From Mariprofundus sp. (GTDB lineage Bacteria; Pseudomonadota; Zetaproteobacteria; Mariprofundales; Mariprofundaceae), in the NCBI GenBank assembly GCA_021772835.1, contig JAJFLE010000084.1, positions 1-64,000 of the forward strand: a stretch of 64,000 nt of DNA, given 5' to 3'. Each line of letters opens with the position of its first letter. Positions within the stretch are counted from its first letter, which is position 1. The notes beneath the pieces are model-generated. The model was not told the DNA's origin, did no database searches, and saw only the letters and a program-made list of their open reading frames with translations. The position numbers and the translations under genes are program-made. Shown piece after piece: positions 7,133 to 44,408 of this stretch.

Positions 7133-9925
7133 ATGACTGTGGCCAACGACAAACAATCGCAAGAAACATTCGATTATAAATCCAGCGTTTTCCTGCCGAA
7201 AACCGACTTTCCGATGCGTGGTGGGCTACCGCAGAGTGAGCCGAAACGGCTGGCAAAGTGGGAAGATGAAGATCTCCATGGGCAGATTCGTGAAGCGCGC
7301 AAGGGTGCCCCGAAATTCATCCTGCATGATGGACCGCCTTACGCCAACGGCAGCATCCACATCGGCCATGCCCTGAATAAAGTTCTCAAAGATATCGTGA
7401 TTCGTTCACGCACCATGCTTGGATTCGATGCGCCTTATGTGCCGGGCTGGGATTGCCATGGCCTGCCGATTGAGCTGAAGGTGGAAGAGAAGTTCAAAAA
7501 GAAGAAGCGCAAGAAAGAAGACATCAGCGATTCTGAATTTCGTAGCGAGTGCCGCGAATATGCCAAAGGGCAGATTGATGTACAGCGCGAAGAATTCAAA
7601 CGCCTGGGCATCACGGGTGACTGGGACAACCCATATGTCACCATGGACTATAAGTTCGAAGCCAATACCGTACGTGAAATCGGCCGTTTCCTTGCGAATG
7701 GCGGCCTGTATAAGGGTGCAAAACCTGTGCACTGGTGCGTATCCTGTGCCACAGCTCTGGCTGAAGCAGAAGTGGAATATGAGGACCACACCTCGCACTC
7801 CATCTATGTAAAGTTTACCGCAGGCGAAGACCTCACGGATGTCGCTGCTGAGTTGACCGGTAATGTTTCTATCGTCATCTGGACCACGACACCCTGGACC
7901 ATCCCTGCCAACCTCGCTGTGTCTGTTGGCCCGTCCATCGAATACTCAGCGGTTAAAATCACCGATACAGGTGACAATGCCAACCTCGAAGTTGGAGAAA
8001 TCCTGATCCTGGCTGAAGAACTTCGCGACGGTGTCATGCAGGCCATTGGCGCCAACGGTGAAGTGATCGCCCGCTTTACCGGCGACAAGCTGGATAAGCG
8101 TAAGTTCCGCCATCCGTATCTGGATCAGGATGCTCCGATTCTGGTTGGTGCTCATGTAACACTGGAAGCGGGAACCGGATCGGTACATACCGCACCGGGC
8201 CATGGCCAGGAAGATTACGAAATCGGCATGAAATACGGTCTGGCCGTTTTTAACCCGGTTGGCAATACCGGCGTGTTCGATGAAGCAACACCAGTAGTCG
8301 CTGGCCGCCATGTGTATCAGGCCAATGCCATGATGGTCGATCACCTGCGCGACTGCGGTGCCCTGCTGGAAACCAGCCAGATCAAACATTCCTACCCGCA
8401 CTGCTGGCGCTGCCATAAACCACTTATTTTCCGTGCCACGCCGCAATGGTTCATCTCCATGGAGAACAACGACCTGCGCAACAAGGCTCTGGCTGAAATC
8501 AAGAAAACCAAATGGACACCGGAATGGGGTGAAAACCGTATCCGTGCCATGGTGGAGCAGCGTCCTGACTGGTGTGTATCACGTCAGCGCAACTGGGGCG
8601 TGCCGATCACGGCCATTCGTTGCGAATGCGGCTCACACAAAGTCACTACGCCTGACGTTGTTGAAGCCATAGCCAAACAGGTTGAAGTCGCAGGCGCCGA
8701 TGTCTGGTTTGCCAAGGATGTAACAGCATTCTTGCCTGCAGATGCCACCTGCCCTGATTGCGGCGGCACTGATTTCACCAAAGAGACCGACATCCTCGAT
8801 GTCTGGTTCGATTCCGGCAGCACGCATGCCTGTGTACTTGAGCATCGGAACGACCTGCAAAGCCCTGCTGATCTCTATCTGGAAGGCTCTGACCAGCATC
8901 GTGGCTGGTTCCAGTCCTCGCTGCTGGAGAGTGTAGGCACGCGCGGTGTTGCACCGTTCAAAGGTGTGCTCACGCATGGTTTTGTGGTGGATAAAAATGG
9001 TAATAAAATGTCCAAATCCAAGGGCAATGTGATTGCACCGCAGAAAATCATTGAGCAACTGGGCTCCGACATTCTGCGCCTGTGGATTGCCTCAGCCGAC
9101 TATTCAGCTGATATCCGCATCTCCGATGAAATCCTTAAACAACTGGCTGAAGCCTATCGCCGTATCCGTAATACCATCCGTTTCCTGCTCGGTAATCTCG
9201 ATGGTTTTGATCCGGTTCGTGATGCTGTGCCGCTTGCCGAACGAACACCACTCGATCAGTGGGCCAGCCATCGCCTGTCACAGGTGGAACATGTCGTGCA
9301 TAATGCTTATGAACACTATCAGTTCCATCGCATCCATCAGGAAGTGCATAACTTCTGCTCGGTTGATCTGGGCGGATTCTATCTGGATATCATCAAGGAT
9401 CGCCTCTACTGCGATGCCTTTGACTCCAAGCGTCGCGCTTCTGCACGTGCTACCTTATACGACCTGTCCGACACACTGATCAGACTGATTGCGCCGATTG
9501 TGCCATTCACGGCCGATGAAGCATGGGACTACCTGCCGGGTTCCGATGAACGAAGCATCCATTTGCAGAGCCTCCATCCGGCTGCCGATATCAAGGTGGA
9601 TGAAAAAGCATGGGAAGCCTTCTTTACCGTGCGCGAACAGGTCAATACGGCCATGGATCTGGCCAAGAAGGATAAGGTGGTCGGCTCGTCCATTGCTGCG
9701 ACAGTCACGGTGCCAGGTCTGGATCATGCATTTGCCGAATCACTGGGTGAAAGCTGGGAGCAGCTGTTTATTGTTGCCAAAGTTGAAGCTGGCGACAACA
9801 TCACCATTACGGCGGCAGACGGTATCAAATGCCCGCGTTGCTGGAATGTTTCCAAACCTGCAGAACCGGCGCATGCACTGCACAATGCACTGTGCCCGCG
9901 CTGCTTTGAGGTTGTCGCAGGTTAA
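7133..9925 (+). CDS. ileS: Isoleucyl-tRNA synthetase
   Basis: HDGPPYANGSIHIGHALNKVLKD, VPGWDCHGLPIE, KMSKSKGN, C-terminal Zn motif CPRCWN...CPRC. Confidence 0.98.
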   Translation: MTVANDKQSQETFDYKSSVFLPKTDFPMRGGLPQSEPKRLAKWEDEDLHGQIREARKGAPKFILHDGPPYANGSIHIGHALNKVLKDIVIRSRTMLGFDAPYVPGWDCHGLPIELKVEEKFKKKKRKKEDISDSEFRSECREYAKGQIDVQREEFKRLGITGDWDNPYVTMDYKFEANTVREIGRFLANGGLYKGAKPVHWCVSCATALAEAEVEYEDHTSHSIYVKFTAGEDLTDVAAELTGNVSIVIWTTTPWTIPANLAVSVGPSIEYSAVKITDTGDNANLEVGEILILAEELRDGVMQAIGANGEVIARFTGDKLDKRKFRHPYLDQDAPILVGAHVTLEAGTGSVHTAPGHGQEDYEIGMKYGLAVFNPVGNTGVFDEATPVVAGRHVYQANAMMVDHLRDCGALLETSQIKHSYPHCWRCHKPLIFRATPQWFISMENNDLRNKALAEIKKTKWTPEWGENRIRAMVEQRPDWCVSRQRNWGVPITAIRCECGSHKVTTPDVVEAIAKQVEVAGADVWFAKDVTAFLPADATCPDCGGTDFTKETDILDVWFDSGSTHACVLEHRNDLQSPADLYLEGSDQHRGWFQSSLLESVGTRGVAPFKGVLTHGFVVDKNGNKMSKSKGNVIAPQKIIEQLGSDILRLWIASADYSADIRISDEILKQLAEAYRRIRNTIRFLLGNLDGFDPVRDAVPLAERTPLDQWASHRLSQVEHVVHNAYEHYQFHRIHQEVHNFCSVDLGGFYLDIIKDRLYCDAFDSKRRASARATLYDLSDTLIRLIAPIVPFTADEAWDYLPGSDERSIHLQSLHPAADIKVDEKAWEAFFTVREQVNTAMDLAKKDKVVGSSIAATVTVPGLDHAFAESLGESWEQLFIVAKVEAGDNITITAADGIKCPRCWNVSKPAEPAHALHNALCPRCFEVVAG

Positions 9926-35477: not shown

Positions 35478-36194
35478 TTACCCGCCCAGCTCGCGGGTGG
35501 CCGCCTCAATATCGGTTTTCAACCGCTCCAGCAGTTCATTGCGTTTCATCGCTGCCACCTCTTCTGGCGGGATATAGGGTAAGAAACGGAAGGTGATCGT
35601 GCCCGGTGTTTTGATAAAGCTGCGCTTGGGCCACAAGGCTCCGGCATTATGCGCCATCGGCAAAATACCTGATTTTGCCTTCTGTGCCAGAATGATACCA
35701 CCGGGCTGGTAGTGCCCTGTGCTGCCAACAGCTGAACGCGTCCCCTCAGGGAAAATCACCACCCAGCGGTCTTGCTCAAGCATGGCCGTGCCATCCTTGA
35801 TCACTTGTTTGATCGCTTCGCGCGGAGAACCACGGCGAATGCCAATCGTACCCATCAACGCCAGCGCCCAGCCGAAGAAAGGAATATTGAACAGCTCACG
35901 CTTGAGTATCCATGTATAGGGTGGCACCAGAATCGGCATAGCCACGGTTTCAGCGGCCGACTGATGCTTGGCCACCACCACGCAGGCATGATCAGGCATA
36001 TGCGCTTTACCCTCGATAACAATACGGATACCGCAGAGCAGCCTGAGTAGTAAAAATGTGGTATTCGACCACATTTTCGCCCACAGCCACGATGCTGGAA
36101 AACCGAATGGTCGAGACAGGATCACCAGCAGTGAAAACAACGGTGTCAGAACCATGAAACAGACATTGAACAGCGCCGAACGGATCATCAACAT
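35478..36194 (-). CDS. plsC: 1-acyl-sn-glycerol-3-phosphate acyltransferase
   Basis: VVVAKHQSAAETVAM (HxxxxD-like, HQSAAE), FPEGTRSAVG. Confidence 0.88.
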   Translation of the reverse strand: MLMIRSALFNVCFMVLTPLFSLLVILSRPFGFPASWLWAKMWSNTTFLLLRLLCGIRIVIEGKAHMPDHACVVVAKHQSAAETVAMPILVPPYTWILKRELFNIPFFGWALALMGTIGIRRGSPREAIKQVIKDGTAMLEQDRWVVIFPEGTRSAVGSTGHYQPGGIILAQKAKSGILPMAHNAGALWPKRSFIKTPGTITFRFLPYIPPEEVAAMKRNELLERLKTDIEAATRELGG

Positions 36195-36754
36195 CAGCTT
36201 TCGTCACCCAGTATCATAGTCACAGCTTCTGCAAGATTGGAGCAGGATTGGATACCCGGCATGAACTGCTGCGACTGTTGCAGTATGCTCTCCGCATCGC
36301 CATAACCACTCTGCACCAGCATAGCCGGCACTCCGGCTGCATGCGCCGCCTCAACATCACGGATGGAATCACCGATAAACAAGGCCTTCTCCGGCGTTTC
36401 GGACAGGCCCAAAGCTTCAAGTGTCTCAATCACCATACCGGGCTTGGGCTTGCGACAGTTACAATGCTCATCAGGACCATGCGGACAATAAGAAACATGT
36501 GTAATAAAACCGCCAGCCATCTCAATAGCCAACATCATCTTGCCATGAATATCATTGAATGTTTTCTGATCCATCATACCGCGCCCGAGACCCGATTGAT
36601 TACTGACAATAGTCACAGCAATACCGGCCGCATGCAGACGTGCAATCGCCGCAAGTGACCCGGGAATGGGATGCCACTGATCGGGGGCAAGGATATAATC
36701 CGGTGAATCGAAATTGATGACTCCGTCTCGATCCAGTAATACAGCTTTTAGCAT
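36194..36754 (-). CDS. gmhB: D-glycero-beta-D-manno-heptose 1,7-bisphosphate 7-phosphatase
   Basis: LDRDGVINFDSPDYI; NQSGLGRGMM; CPHGPDEHCNCRKPKPGM Zn motif. Confidence 0.93.
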   Translation of the reverse strand: MLKAVLLDRDGVINFDSPDYILAPDQWHPIPGSLAAIARLHAAGIAVTIVSNQSGLGRGMMDQKTFNDIHGKMMLAIEMAGGFITHVSYCPHGPDEHCNCRKPKPGMVIETLEALGLSETPEKALFIGDSIRDVEAAHAAGVPAMLVQSGYGDAESILQQSQQFMPGIQSCSNLAEAVTMILGDES

Positions 36755-36814
36755 AGTTCTGTTTCCCTCACCCATGGCAGAACAATACGCTCTGAGCACT
36801 GATGAGAAAAGGTG

Positions 36815-39319
36815 TCAGTCAGCCATGAGCTTGGCATGGATGGATTCACTCAGCGCCTGAATGGAAAACGGCTTGCTCAGCACAGTCTCCTTAATATCCT
36901 CATTGCCTTGCAGAGCATTGTTATCGTAACCGGTGATAAATATCACCCGCACATGCTCATCCGCCTCTCTGATCTGCCTGAGCAACTCAATGCCGCCCAC
37001 TCTCGGCATAATGATATCCGAAATAATCAAATCAATATCTTGCCTATGTTTGTTATAACAATCGAGAGCCTCACCGCCATCACTGGCAACCATAACCTTA
37101 TAACCCAATGCCTTGAGTACCTCGCCGGTTGCCTGGCGTATATTTTCATCATCGTCCACGAGAAGCAGCAGCTGCCCATGGCCTTTACTGATTTCACTCT
37201 GTCCAATCAGCTCTTTCACCGCTTGCTTTTGCATCACCGGCAGATAAATATGCATGGTCGTGCCACTGCCCACCTCACTGCCCACCTCACTGTCCACTTC
37301 GATGATGCCCTGATGAGCCTCCACAACGCCATAAACCATAGCCAGCCCCAAACCGGTACCTTTACCGGCACCCTTGGTGGTAAAAAAGGGTTCGAACACC
37401 TTATCAAGGCGATACTGCGCGATGCCATGGCCATTATCGGAAACAGAAATATGGGCAAACTGTTCCGCCTTAAGGTCGCTATATTTCTTTCTGAAACATG
37501 AGTCAGCCGAAAACAGCTCCAGTTTGCAGCATATGAGAGGCTCAGCCACAGATTCGACAGCATCGCGGGCATTATTCAGCAAATTCATCAGCAGCTGTTG
37601 TAATTGTGTGGCATCACCATTAACCATCAGGTTATCCGCACAGATATGTGACTGATATTCAATATTTTCCGGTATTGCAGCCTGCGTCAGCTTGTAGGCC
37701 TCCTTCATAAAAGAGTTGATATTAAAGACTTTCATGTCGACATTGTCTTTGCGCGCAAAGGTGAGCAACTGGCGTACCATGTCACCGGCCTGAGTGCCAA
37801 GTTTCTCAATATTTTTCACCTTTTCAAAGGCCTTGGACCCTTCGTCCAGCTTGATGCGGGCCAGATAGGCATTTCCCTGAATGGCTGCAATCACATTGTT
37901 GAAATCGTGGGCAATGCCTCCGACCAGCGTACCCATCGCCTCCATCTTCTGTGCCTGCAGAAACTGACGTTCAAGCTTGCTATAGTCGGACATATCCTGT
38001 TGCAGGGAAACGAAATGCGTGATGTTATCCTGCTCATCCTTGATCGGAGTGATGCTCATCATAGCCGGATAGTATTCGCCGTTTTGACGTTTATCGGTCA
38101 ACGAGCCATGCCAGATCTCACCACTGAGAATTGTACCCCAAAGTTGTTTGTAAAAATCCGGGCTCTGAGCACCGCTATTGAGCACTGCGGGGCTTTTACC
38201 GATCACGTCATCGTAACTGTAGCCAGTAATTCGTGTGAAGGCAGGGTTAACATATTCAATGACTGAGTGCACATCCGTCACCATCACCGATTCCACCGAC
38301 TGCTGAATGGCCGTTGAAAGCTGGCGCATCAGTGCTTCGGATTTCAGGCGACTGCTGACATCACGAGCAATGGCGACAAAGAACAATTCCCCTTCCATTT
38401 CGAAACGCCGCACAAGTGCCTCAACCGGAAATTCGCTACCATCTTTTCGCCTGTACCTGCACACACTACGGCCAACCTCTATTTCACCTGTCTGCAACTG
38501 CTGAAAAATCCTCTCAAGCGCATCAGGTTCTACCAATGCAAAACTCAGTGGATTCATTTCTAACAGCTCTCCTCTGGTATAACCCAGTTGCTGACATGCG
38601 GTATTATTAACATCAACAAATCGTCCCACCCTGGGATCGTAGAGGAAAAATGCATCCGGGCTTGAATCCAGTGCAAAGCGGGAACGCTGAAGTTCATGCT
38701 CTATTTTTCTCTGCCTGGTAATATCCTGAGCAGTACCGTATGAGCGGAGTGGATTTCCCTGACTGTCATAATCCGTATCGCCATGCACGGAGATATATTT
38801 GATCCGTCCATCCGCCATTAGCAGACGATGAATCACATGGTAGAATGTATGATCGGCTACAGACGCTTCATACACCTTGGTAACCACATCTCTGTCCTGC
38901 GGATGAATGGCAGCGAGGAATGCATCGTAACTGGCTCCGAACTGCGTCTTCTCTATCTCAAAGATGTCAAACACTTGATCTGACCACTGCAGATATTTTG
39001 CTCCCCGATCCAGCTCCCAGTTACCCATCAAAGCAACCTGTTGGGCTCGGGCAAGAAAGTGCTGCTGCTCCAGTATCTGTTCGGATAAGGCAATCTTTTC
39101 TTTTCCCCTGCGATATGAGAACCAGATGAATGCCAGCGAAATCAGAAAAACTGCCATCACCAGATCATCCAGTTCCCAGGACTCGTGGCGGTGAACGGAT
39201 TCAAACAGCAGTTCAAACAGATCAAAAGTTGATGCCATTGCCCAGACAAGCATAACCGCTGCAACAGCTATGGTAATATCCAGCCCGGCTTTAGTTCCGA
39301 GCTTAGGCACAGAGCACAC
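36815..39319 (-). CDS. PAS-domain hybrid histidine kinase/response regulator
   Basis: 2 TM N-terminus, three PAS, H-box [21 protein letters not shown], HATPase [33 protein letters not shown]. Confidence 0.92.
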   Translation of the reverse strand: MCSVPKLGTKAGLDITIAVAAVMLVWAMASTFDLFELLFESVHRHESWELDDLVMAVFLISLAFIWFSYRRGKEKIALSEQILEQQHFLARAQQVALMGNWELDRGAKYLQWSDQVFDIFEIEKTQFGASYDAFLAAIHPQDRDVVTKVYEASVADHTFYHVIHRLLMADGRIKYISVHGDTDYDSQGNPLRSYGTAQDITRQRKIEHELQRSRFALDSSPDAFFLYDPRVGRFVDVNNTACQQLGYTRGELLEMNPLSFALVEPDALERIFQQLQTGEIEVGRSVCRYRRKDGSEFPVEALVRRFEMEGELFFVAIARDVSSRLKSEALMRQLSTAIQQSVESVMVTDVHSVIEYVNPAFTRITGYSYDDVIGKSPAVLNSGAQSPDFYKQLWGTILSGEIWHGSLTDKRQNGEYYPAMMSITPIKDEQDNITHFVSLQQDMSDYSKLERQFLQAQKMEAMGTLVGGIAHDFNNVIAAIQGNAYLARIKLDEGSKAFEKVKNIEKLGTQAGDMVRQLLTFARKDNVDMKVFNINSFMKEAYKLTQAAIPENIEYQSHICADNLMVNGDATQLQQLLMNLLNNARDAVESVAEPLICCKLELFSADSCFRKKYSDLKAEQFAHISVSDNGHGIAQYRLDKVFEPFFTTKGAGKGTGLGLAMVYGVVEAHQGIIEVDSEVGSEVGSGTTMHIYLPVMQKQAVKELIGQSEISKGHGQLLLLVDDDENIRQATGEVLKALGYKVMVASDGGEALDCYNKHRQDIDLIISDIIMPRVGGIELLRQIREADEHVRVIFITGYDNNALQGNEDIKETVLSKPFSIQALSESIHAKLMAD

Positions 39320-39437: not shown

Positions 39438-42400
39438 CTATCGCGATGGTATCAGCATAGCTTCAATCAACAGGCTAAGTTCGGCGATGTTCGCCGGTTT
39501 ATTGATGAGTCCACAATGATCAATCTGTTTGATCTCTTCACTTCGACCGGAAAAGTCGTAACCGGTCACAAGAATGATCGGCATCTGACTGTCTGATTCG
39601 CGAATCATATGGGCCAGCTCAATACCACCCATCACCGGCATCACCACATCGGAAATGACCATATCTATCTCATCCCGATGATAGCGATAGTGTTCAAATG
39701 CCTTCTCACCATTGACGGCTTCCACCACCACATAACCGAGGCTTATCAATACCTCTCCGATAGTTTCAAGAATCAACTGTTCATCATCCACCAGCAATAT
39801 GGTTTCACCATGCCCAACTACGCTTTGCTGAACCTCCTCACATTGTTCACTCAACAGAGGAAGATAAACTTGCACCGTGGTACCGTGGCCAATTTGACTG
39901 TCTATTTCAATTAAGCCGCCATGCCTCTGCACCGCACCGTAAACCATAGCCAATCCCAGGCCTGTACCTTTGCCGACCCCCTTGGTCGTAAAAAACGGTT
40001 CCAACACTTTTTCGATCAAATCTGCCTCTATGCCACTGCCATTATCCTGCACTGATAGACAGACCATCGGGCCAGCCCCGACTTCAGGGTATTTATGACG
40101 GAATGCATTTGTAGGCTCAAACAGACTCACACTTGTTTTAATGATCGGCTTTTCGGTATCAGCAACAGCGTCACGGGCATTATTGAGCAGATTCATCAGT
40201 AGCTGCTGCAGTTGTGTTGCATCTCCTTTCACCATAATACGCTGATCGATGACATCTTTGATAAACTTGATATTTTCTGGAATTCCGCTCTCTGCCAACT
40301 TCAGTCCTTCTTTGACAAAAGAATTGAACGAGATCCCCCGCATTTCCACCCGATCCTTACGGGAAAAGGTGAGCAATTGACGTACAATATCAGCAGCACG
40401 GGAACTTAAACGTTCAATATTCATTAGCTTTTCGGCCACGATAACCGGATCATTCACCCTGGACTTGGCCAGATACACATTGCCCTGCAGGGCAGCCAGC
40501 ATGTTGTTGAAATCGTATGCGATACCGCCGACCAGCGTGCCAATCGCCTCCATCTTCTGGGCCTGCAGGAACTGATCTTCCAGTCGTTTATACTCGGTCA
40601 TATCCTGTTGCAGAGAAACAAAATGGGTGATCTCACCGGCATCATCATGAATTGGCGCTATGCTCATCAAGGCTGGATAGAAACTACCATCCTTGCGCCG
40701 GTCTATGAGTGTGCCGTGCCAGACATCGCCTGCGAGGATGGTTTGCCACAGCTCCCTGTAAAAGGAGGGATTTTGGGCATCGCTTTTAAGCATGGCCGGT
40801 GTATTGCCTATTGCCTCTTCAGCATCGTATCCGGTGATCCCGGTAAATGCCGGGTTCACATACTCAATCGTGGCATTGCGGTCAGTGATAATAACCGCTT
40901 CACCAGCTTCACCAATGGCCTTAAGCAACTTTCGCTGCTCTGCCTGCGCACTCACCTGATCGGACAGATCACGCATCATCACCGTCATAATGGGCTTATC
41001 CCCGATCACCTGTTTAGAAATCGATATCTCAACAGGAAATTCTTCGCCGTTGAAGCGGCGCCCGAACATACCGACTCTCCTGTGCATCAATGGCGCAACC
41101 TCTTCATTGAGAAAGTCTTCAACTTTTTTGTGATGGGACTTGTGAAAACGTGTAGGGATCAGCCTGTCAACATGTTCTCCCATGATCTCGGAAGCAGCGA
41201 CTGCAAACATGCCCTCAGCCGCTTTATTGAACAGAACAACTTTCTGCTCTTCATTGATAGAGATAATCGCATCAGCTGCCATCTCCACAATTCCGGAAAA
41301 ACGTTCCCGACTCTCGAGCATTTGAATATCGGCCAACTTACGTTTGGTAATATCCTGGGTTGTGCCAATCGAACGAACTGCTGTGCCATCTTTATTATAA
41401 TCAGTATGGCACTGTTCCTGCACCCACTTCACCGAGCCATCCGGCATCAACAGGCGGTGCTCAATGTCATAAGCCGTGCTGTTTTCCACTGAACTGGTAT
41501 AGGCATGATTTACATCATCCCGGTCATCCGGATGTACTCTTTCCAGAAAGGTCTCATAATTGTTCGCAGCCTTGGTGGTGCTGCCGAATATATGGCAGTT
41601 CTCTTTTGACCAGATCAGGTTATTTTCAATCAGATCAAGTTCCCAATGACCCAGATGGGCGACATGTTGTGCTTCTTCATATCTTTCTTGCGTTTGTATC
41701 AGCAAGTTCTCGGTTTCTTTGCGCTGCTCATTAAGATTATATGCCGAGATAATTTGACCACATGAGGCCGTGAGTGGCTTCAACATATCTCTCAATCGTT
41801 CATCATATCCCTCTGGCCGGTTAGCCATACCGGCCATACCTATCAGTTCTCCGCCAATGACAAAAGGAATGCCCATAAACGCATTGAGCGGTGGATGTCC
41901 TTCCGGTCTGCCACAGGCTCTCGGGTCGGAGGCCGGATCATTGGCAAACACATATTGCCCCGTTTTGATCACCTCTCCAAACAGAGAATCCAGATTACGA
42001 AACTCCATGCCGGATGGTGCATTCTGTTCATAGAATTCCAGCGTTTCTTCATTCCATGCGATATTGCTCAGGGCAAAAGTTTTCAAGTAAGGCACATCGT
42101 CTTCCGTATAAAGAATGCGACCGATAAAACCGTACTCACTACCGGTAATAGCAAGTAATTCATTAAGCAGCGAATCAAACACAGCTTGCGGCGATGCATC
42201 TGCAATAAATCGGGACTGAGCATGGCTGATCGAGTCCAGCATGGCCCGATCAAATTTCAGGTTCTCTTGAGCCTCTTTCATTTCACTGATATCAGTTGAT
42301 ATGCCACCCATGCCATAGATATTTCCACTAACATCAGTAAGAGGGAACTTGACGGATAGGTAGGTATGGAGACCGTCGTTATGCGGCGCAGACTCTTCCA

Positions 42401-43256
42401 TCTCCCTGGCTTTATTCTCTTTGATCACTTGCCTGTCATTCTCCTGAAAGGCATGGGCAGTCGCTTCGGGAAAAACATCGTGGTCGGTTTTCCCTACAAT
42501 CCACTCCTGTGTAACGTCGAACATTTTTTCCCACTGTTTGTTAACAAGAATATATTTCCCTTCCAAATCTTTGAGATAGATCAATGAGCTTGTGTTATCG
42601 AGAATCGACTGCAAACGCTGCTGACTCTCGCATGCAGCTATTTCCGAGCATTTTTTTTCTGTGATATCCTTGGCAACACCGGCTAGCCGAAAGGGTTCAC
42701 CCTTTTCATCGAGTACCGGGAACGTAGACTCGAGTATCCAGCATATCGACCCGTCAGGCTGCACGATTCGATATTCCTCTTCATACTCTCTGGCGTCAGC
42801 CATATTACCAAGAGACCTGCTCATTCGCTCTCTGTCATCAGGATGAACTGCATCCAGCCATGCATCAGGAGATGCATACAGAGCTTCAGGCGGCTGCCCC
42901 CATAGTGTTTCGTAGGCAGGGCTGACAAAATACATTTCACTTAGATCAAGGTTGCCGACCCACAACACATCGGAGCTGTTTTTGGCAACGTCCAGAATAA
43001 ACATTTCGGACTGTTTCGCCTGAGCATTGACATGTTCAGCCTCTCTCCATCGTCTGTATGCAAGCCAGCATGCAACGATTGAAAGTATCAGAAAGAAAAA
43101 AACAGCTTCATCAAGCTGCCACTGTTCATGCTGGCGAAGAAAGGCCTGTACATACCCGTACAGATCCAGATAGACACCCGCACCCCACACTGCGACAAGC
43201 ACTGAGCCTGCAATAATCAGGTCGCCGCGGAAGCTGCTGGCTAAACCCTTCTTCAT
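39438..43256 (-). CDS. PAS/GAF hybrid sensor kinase/response regulator with Tyr in the H-box position
   Basis: 2 TM N-terminus, multiple PAS and a [25 protein letters not shown]-box [47 protein letters not shown]. Confidence 0.92.

Positions 43257-43448: not shown

Positions 43449-44408
<960 letters not shown>

Follow-up and report, generated by a model that had tools for sequence, protein, structure and literature searches.

A 1272-aa hybrid histidine kinase of a Mariprofundus species, P0001, carries tyrosine at the position of the phosphoacceptor histidine. Its gene (39438..43256, minus strand) lies in the window, i.e. the whole 64,000-nt stretch of DNA analysed, and is assigned from its ORF and translation and from Pfam matches to PAS, GAF, HATPase_c and Response_reg. 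The substitution is tentatively read as a recent, tolerated one-base loss of autokinase activity (H914Y) on the terminal branch, in preference to a functional pseudokinase or an error in the consensus sequence. The weights behind this preference (the largest for the loss, smaller and equal ones for the two others) are a judgement made without computation and concern one genome.

On the minus strand within 40400-40600 the codons read GGC GGT ATC GCA TAC GAT TTC AAC AAC, giving the H-box GGIAYDFNN (40503..40529). The TAC (40517-40515) is codon 914 of the 1272-codon ORF, as the first-pass annotation had reported, and the corresponding column is His in 25 of 25 aligned relatives. The H-box belongs to the DHp domain (residues 892-968; 40353..40583, minus strand), delimited by a weak HisKA match at 906-968 and by alignment to PDB 5idj. 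PAS and GAF sensor domains precede it (residues 84-888; 40593..43007, minus strand; Pfam), and it is followed by the CA domain (HATPase_c, residues 1011-1134; 39855..40226, minus strand; Pfam E=3.3e-20) and a receiver (residues 1153-1262; 39471..39800, minus strand; Response_reg E=1.2e-20). Pfam and the conserved alignment columns agree that the N, G1, F and G2 boxes are all kept, and the acidic pocket, phosphorylatable Asp and Lys of the receiver (D273, D274, D319 and K369 in the numbering of the aligned slice) are invariant. The earlier description of an intact N-box, G-boxes and receiver Asp thus extends to the F-box and the Lys. D915 and N918, the H+1 and H+4 positions, are likewise retained in the alignment; these positions are generally tied to the kinase and phosphatase steps. 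With the phosphoacceptor replaced in an otherwise intact catalytic module, conventional His autokinase activity is not expected, in line with what was first proposed.

Among solved chains the P0001 core is closest to 5idj (E=1.1e-42) and 5idm, the latter named CckA and the former likewise a CckA chain. P0001 resembles these CckA-type hybrid kinases in its GG[V/I]A-x-DFNN type of H-box, its CA domain and its receiver, and differs at the phosphoacceptor, which is His in CckA (aligned ‘GGVAHDFNN’) as expected of an HPK4/CckA-type hybrid kinase. P0001 is best described as a probable membrane-anchored kinase of that type with TAC in place of the His codon. The HisKA match falls under the Pfam cut-off both in P0001 and in the adjacent kinase P0002 (21.1 and 25.4 bits versus 26.9); since P0002 has the histidine, the weak match of P0001 is not caused by the Tyr alone. 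A structure model of the DHp-CA-receiver part reaches a mean pLDDT of 71.9, with only about 50-65 in the DHp, and given these low values the arguments below do not draw on it. Across the two kinase genes, promoter-like sites are no more frequent than in shuffled sequences. Terminator-like sites number 17 versus 8.4 expected, mostly within genes, and are uninformative for that reason.

The Tyr stands out beyond what chance would explain. When 399 Pseudomonadota genomes are scanned for GG[I/L/M/V]A-x-[D/E]FNN in which x is encoded by a non-His codon beginning with A, G or T (C-initial non-His codons, for Gln, Pro, Leu and some Arg, lie outside the scan), two matches emerge, the Tyr of P0001 and one Arg. 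The His form of the motif is present in 295 of these genomes. Such kinases abound in the 78 zetaproteobacterial genomes, where the motif is found 906 times, 905 with His and once, in P0001, with a scanned non-His codon. The genome of P0001 (G000; 2.55 Mb in 87 contigs) holds 27 copies of GG[I/L/M/V]A-H-[D/E]FNN, and each of the 20 further kinase cores extracted from it, P0002 among them, has His. The surroundings of the H-box are more variable in this genome, with HNLNN and HEFNN in kinases on contigs C18 (L101), C12 (L088) and C42 (L100), His being kept. The Arg match, GGLARDFNN with AGA (G148:C19:622778-622804, L084), is at present a candidate kinase only. In the literature, no survey of His-to-Tyr H-boxes turned up beyond DivL and citations of DivL.

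The locus allows orthologues to be identified by synteny. Upstream of P0001 lies a trxB-like thioredoxin reductase gene (43449..44396, 87-91% identical in relatives); downstream lie a gmhB-like HAD phosphatase gene (36194..36799, 70-79%) and a plsC-like acyltransferase gene (35478..36194, 79-90%), all on the minus strand and all named by sequence appearance. The order trxB - kinase - gmhB - plsC is kept across relatives. One kinase occupies the trxB-gmhB interval in G016, G001, G009, G010, G012 and G013 (the G009 contig stops past gmhB), and two occupy it in G008, as in the window. The kinase tree places P0001 beside the G009 kinase (support 98), then with that of G010 (86) and then with those of G016 and G001 and the first of G008; the G012, G013 and second G008 kinases form a separate clade. 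GGIAHDFNN is present in all intact P0001 orthologues found, most of them syntenic, and the Tyr is a singleton. A search of orthologues for Y, proposed at the outset, thus speaks against a conserved pseudokinase lineage, which is ruled out; a conserved non-His residue of the kind seen in DivL is absent from the orthologues. The ancestral residue is His, and it would have been changed by a single C-to-T transition, CAC to TAC, on the branch leading to this genome.

Constraint on the protein was assessed in an alignment of 26 distinct kinases (P0001 and 25 relatives) over DHp, CA and receiver. P0001 deviates at one of the 56 columns that are invariant in the 25 relatives, namely the His, while other kinases show 0 to 4 deviations. 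Its tip branch (0.220) matches that of its sister in G009 (0.226), the G010 branch being 0.273, and shows no acceleration of rate. The core is hence undecayed, and any loss of constraint must be recent: with 55 columns unchanged, the rule of three limits unconstrained divergence since H914Y to less than about 0.055 substitutions per site (95%). Of the suggestion that P0001 is a decaying paralogue one transition away from activity, the single transition from an ancestral His stands, and the decay does not. Degeneration elsewhere in the catalytic domain, which had been envisaged, is seen at none of the 55 other invariant columns. P0001 shows no stops, frameshifts or multiple changes at conserved sites, and simple or advanced decay is rejected on the intact frame, the 1/56 columns and a branch no longer than that of the sister. 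The 55 unchanged columns are explained by selection as a pseudokinase, by a recent change or by an error.

The sequences of two relatives point to the second of these explanations. In G003 the orthologue beside trxB is interrupted after GGIAHDF, and its remainder is found at a distance of 31.6 kb, in the same orientation. In G017 the copy beside gmhB and plsC (L119, G017:C123) is broken near residue 930, its similarity to P0001 beginning near residue 928; the unrelated sequence that precedes this kinase fragment looks by eye like an IS110-type transposase tail. These broken orthologues show the gene to be dispensable, its loss having been tolerated on two or more occasions within the genus. 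Two such losses raise the prior for H914Y as a third, and it is on this raised prior that a recent loss is ranked first. Together, the His of the intact orthologues, the 1/906 motif count, the 1/56 columns, the unremarkable tip branch and the G003 and G017 disruptions make a recent tolerated loss more likely than an old, repurposed pseudokinase. We infer this recency, which carries no date, from a single genome, and a 1272-codon frame intact and free of a second lesion would fit a functional pseudokinase equally.

If the loss is real, the Tyr914 protein would retain dimerisation and ATP binding and would neither autophosphorylate nor feed its own receiver. Docking through the receiver would be possible and residual phosphatase activity is conceivable. 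Lacking autophosphorylation, P0001 would then act in this strain at most as a phosphatase, a sink or a dominant-negative scaffold.

It is doubtful, yet worth weighing, that the tyrosine is a consensus error or a minority allele of a metagenome-assembled genome and that the organism carries CAC. The codon is a single transition away from His, the assembly consists of 87 contigs and is the only genome of the species in the set analysed, and no orthologue has Tyr. However, the frame is intact across 3.8 kb, the other invariant columns of P0001 are normal, and the housekeeping proteins of the contig have no excess branch length (0.130 versus 0.125 in G010); a consensus mistake at exactly codon 914 is expected to be rare.

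No more probable than such an error is a functional, lineage-specific pseudokinase, in which Tyr stops catalysis while PAS/GAF sensing, ATP binding and receiver docking regulate another kinase or response regulator, much as DivL regulates CckA. The partner could be P0002. DivL of Caulobacter crescentus provides a functioning example of this substitution: its Tyr550 replaces His, it has neither kinase nor phosphatase activity, it binds DivK~P, and its Y550H variant needs DivK~P to recover autokinase activity (PMC4211667). P0001 is like DivL in having Tyr for His, a PAS-rich sensor part and retained DHp and CA domains, and its core is fully constrained. The resemblance ends there: most homologues in the Alphaproteobacteria share the DivL Tyr (Magnetospirillum has Ala instead) and DivL binds ATP weakly (PMC4211667), whereas the P0001 Tyr occurs in one genome only, its ATP-binding motifs are as in active kinases and its H-box is of the CckA-like DFNN type. 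Paralogous kinases can heterodimerise, as do ChrS and HrrS of Corynebacterium glutamicum, where a ChrS variant has become a pseudokinase (PMC9491836). There too a mutation makes a pseudokinase from one of two paralogous kinases, but the variant has a frameshifted CA domain and keeps its His, while P0001 has lost the His and kept the CA domain.

P0002 itself (834 aa; 36815..39319, minus strand) has the canonical GGIAHDFNN, in agreement with the first-pass annotation, and is intact by sequence and Pfam, which finds PAS, HATPase_c and receiver domains in both kinases and GAF in P0001 besides. Its DHp is 61% identical to that of P0001, and its CA domain, at 53%, is the closest to that of P0001 in the genome. 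A mixed dimer of the two is possible, but nothing in the DHp singles out P0002: three other kinases of the genome tie with it on DHp identity. Moreover, P0002 is not the sister paralogue of P0001; it sits on a long branch (0.69) outside the P0001 clade, and a close orthologue was not found in the genus, where the best matches are 45-53% identical. On these grounds P0002 is not supported as a recent duplicate and dedicated partner, and the special pairing of the adjacent kinases suggested earlier finds no backing. A pseudokinase role for P0001 is further weakened by the absence of Tyr from every orthologue and by the disruption of the locus in two relatives.

Very improbable is a P0001 that remains active by another route, either through phosphorylation of Tyr914 or because its main output is the phosphorylation, by its CA domain, of a partner's His (that of P0002, for example) within a mixed dimer. 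Intact CA motifs and the 61% DHp identity with P0002 would permit it. Against it, phospho-Tyr is not known to serve as a donor for receiver domains, and P0002 is not singled out as a partner. DivL, in addition, is without autokinase activity (PMC4211667).

The interruption in G003 has a wider bearing, as the element inserted there starts with a large serine recombinase gene encoding Resolvase and Recombinase domains and a zinc ribbon matched slightly under the cut-off. Homologues of this recombinase were gathered and a search for the element end, TTCGGCTACATTAG, across the 78 zetaproteobacterial genomes gives nine occurrences. Eight of these, in seven genomes (G263, G208, G056, G003 twice, G011, G000 contig C10 and G015), adjoin ...GGIAHDF + AAA inside kinase genes. 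Recombinase homologues on G000 contig C41 and in G012 adjoin the opposite half of the H-box in reverse orientation. Collinear kinase halves flank five elements: two in G003 (G003:C4:290608-322209, L121 and L122, 31.6 kb with a long internal run of N; G003:C4:623929-635182, L181 and L182, 11.3 kb), one in G011 (G011:C26:4740-31163, L185 and L186, 26.4 kb), one in the one-contig genome G012 (G012:C1:1108876-1126513, L180, 17.6 kb) and one in the genome of P0001 (G000:C10:55671-64276, L188 and L189, 8.6 kb). Further elements lie near position 8990 of G000 C41 (L158) and in G263, G208, G056 and G015 (L169-L171, L176). Insertion separates F from N (H-D-F|N-N), two codons past the His. Judged by upstream flanks, at least six distinct kinase genes are targeted, G263 and G056 having one in common. 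In these relatives the H-box is thus a precise insertion site for large-serine-recombinase elements, in no fewer than six different kinase genes.

Among the proteins encoded by the elements are response regulators, kinases and a conserved protein that, by eye, looks like a MobA/MobL relaxase. The G012 element brings its own hybrid kinase, along with several proteins of receiver type (1109200-1119439, L180), so that one sensor gene is removed and others are brought in. The C10 and C41 junctions mean that at least two kinases in the genome of P0001 are cut at the H-box. In the same genome, contig C80 ends inside a kinase gene immediately before its H-box (G000:C80:1-384, L105), and C41 holds a kinase 3′ half that begins just past the H-box, beside the recombinase gene (G000:C41:8820-8988, L158); the two could be halves of one interrupted kinase. 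Multi-targeting serine recombinases are already known (PMC10083194). The main text of that study leaves histidine kinases unmentioned, and no description of H-box-targeting serine recombinases was found in the literature. The elements are possibly more novel than Tyr914 itself.

Tyr914 and H-box insertions thus co-occur in one genome, with no established link between the two. Apart from the Tyr change, the P0001 site is a normal target (GATTTCAACAACATG). That H914Y is a selected allele is improbable: it would be either a very young, independent DivL-like pseudokinase in a CckA-type kinase, or a half-site change that shields the gene from insertion, with H-box DNA as the target of resident elements and a protein that keeps a non-catalytic role. 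If functional, P0001 would be a very young pseudo-histidine-kinase with active counterparts still present in sister species, and the first step of pseudokinase evolution would then be testable by a single residue swap. Independently of that, mobile elements use the phosphoacceptor motif as their address for insertion, although it ranks with the most conserved coding DNA in a large family of kinases, and insertions at the H-box can delete sensory pathways singly.
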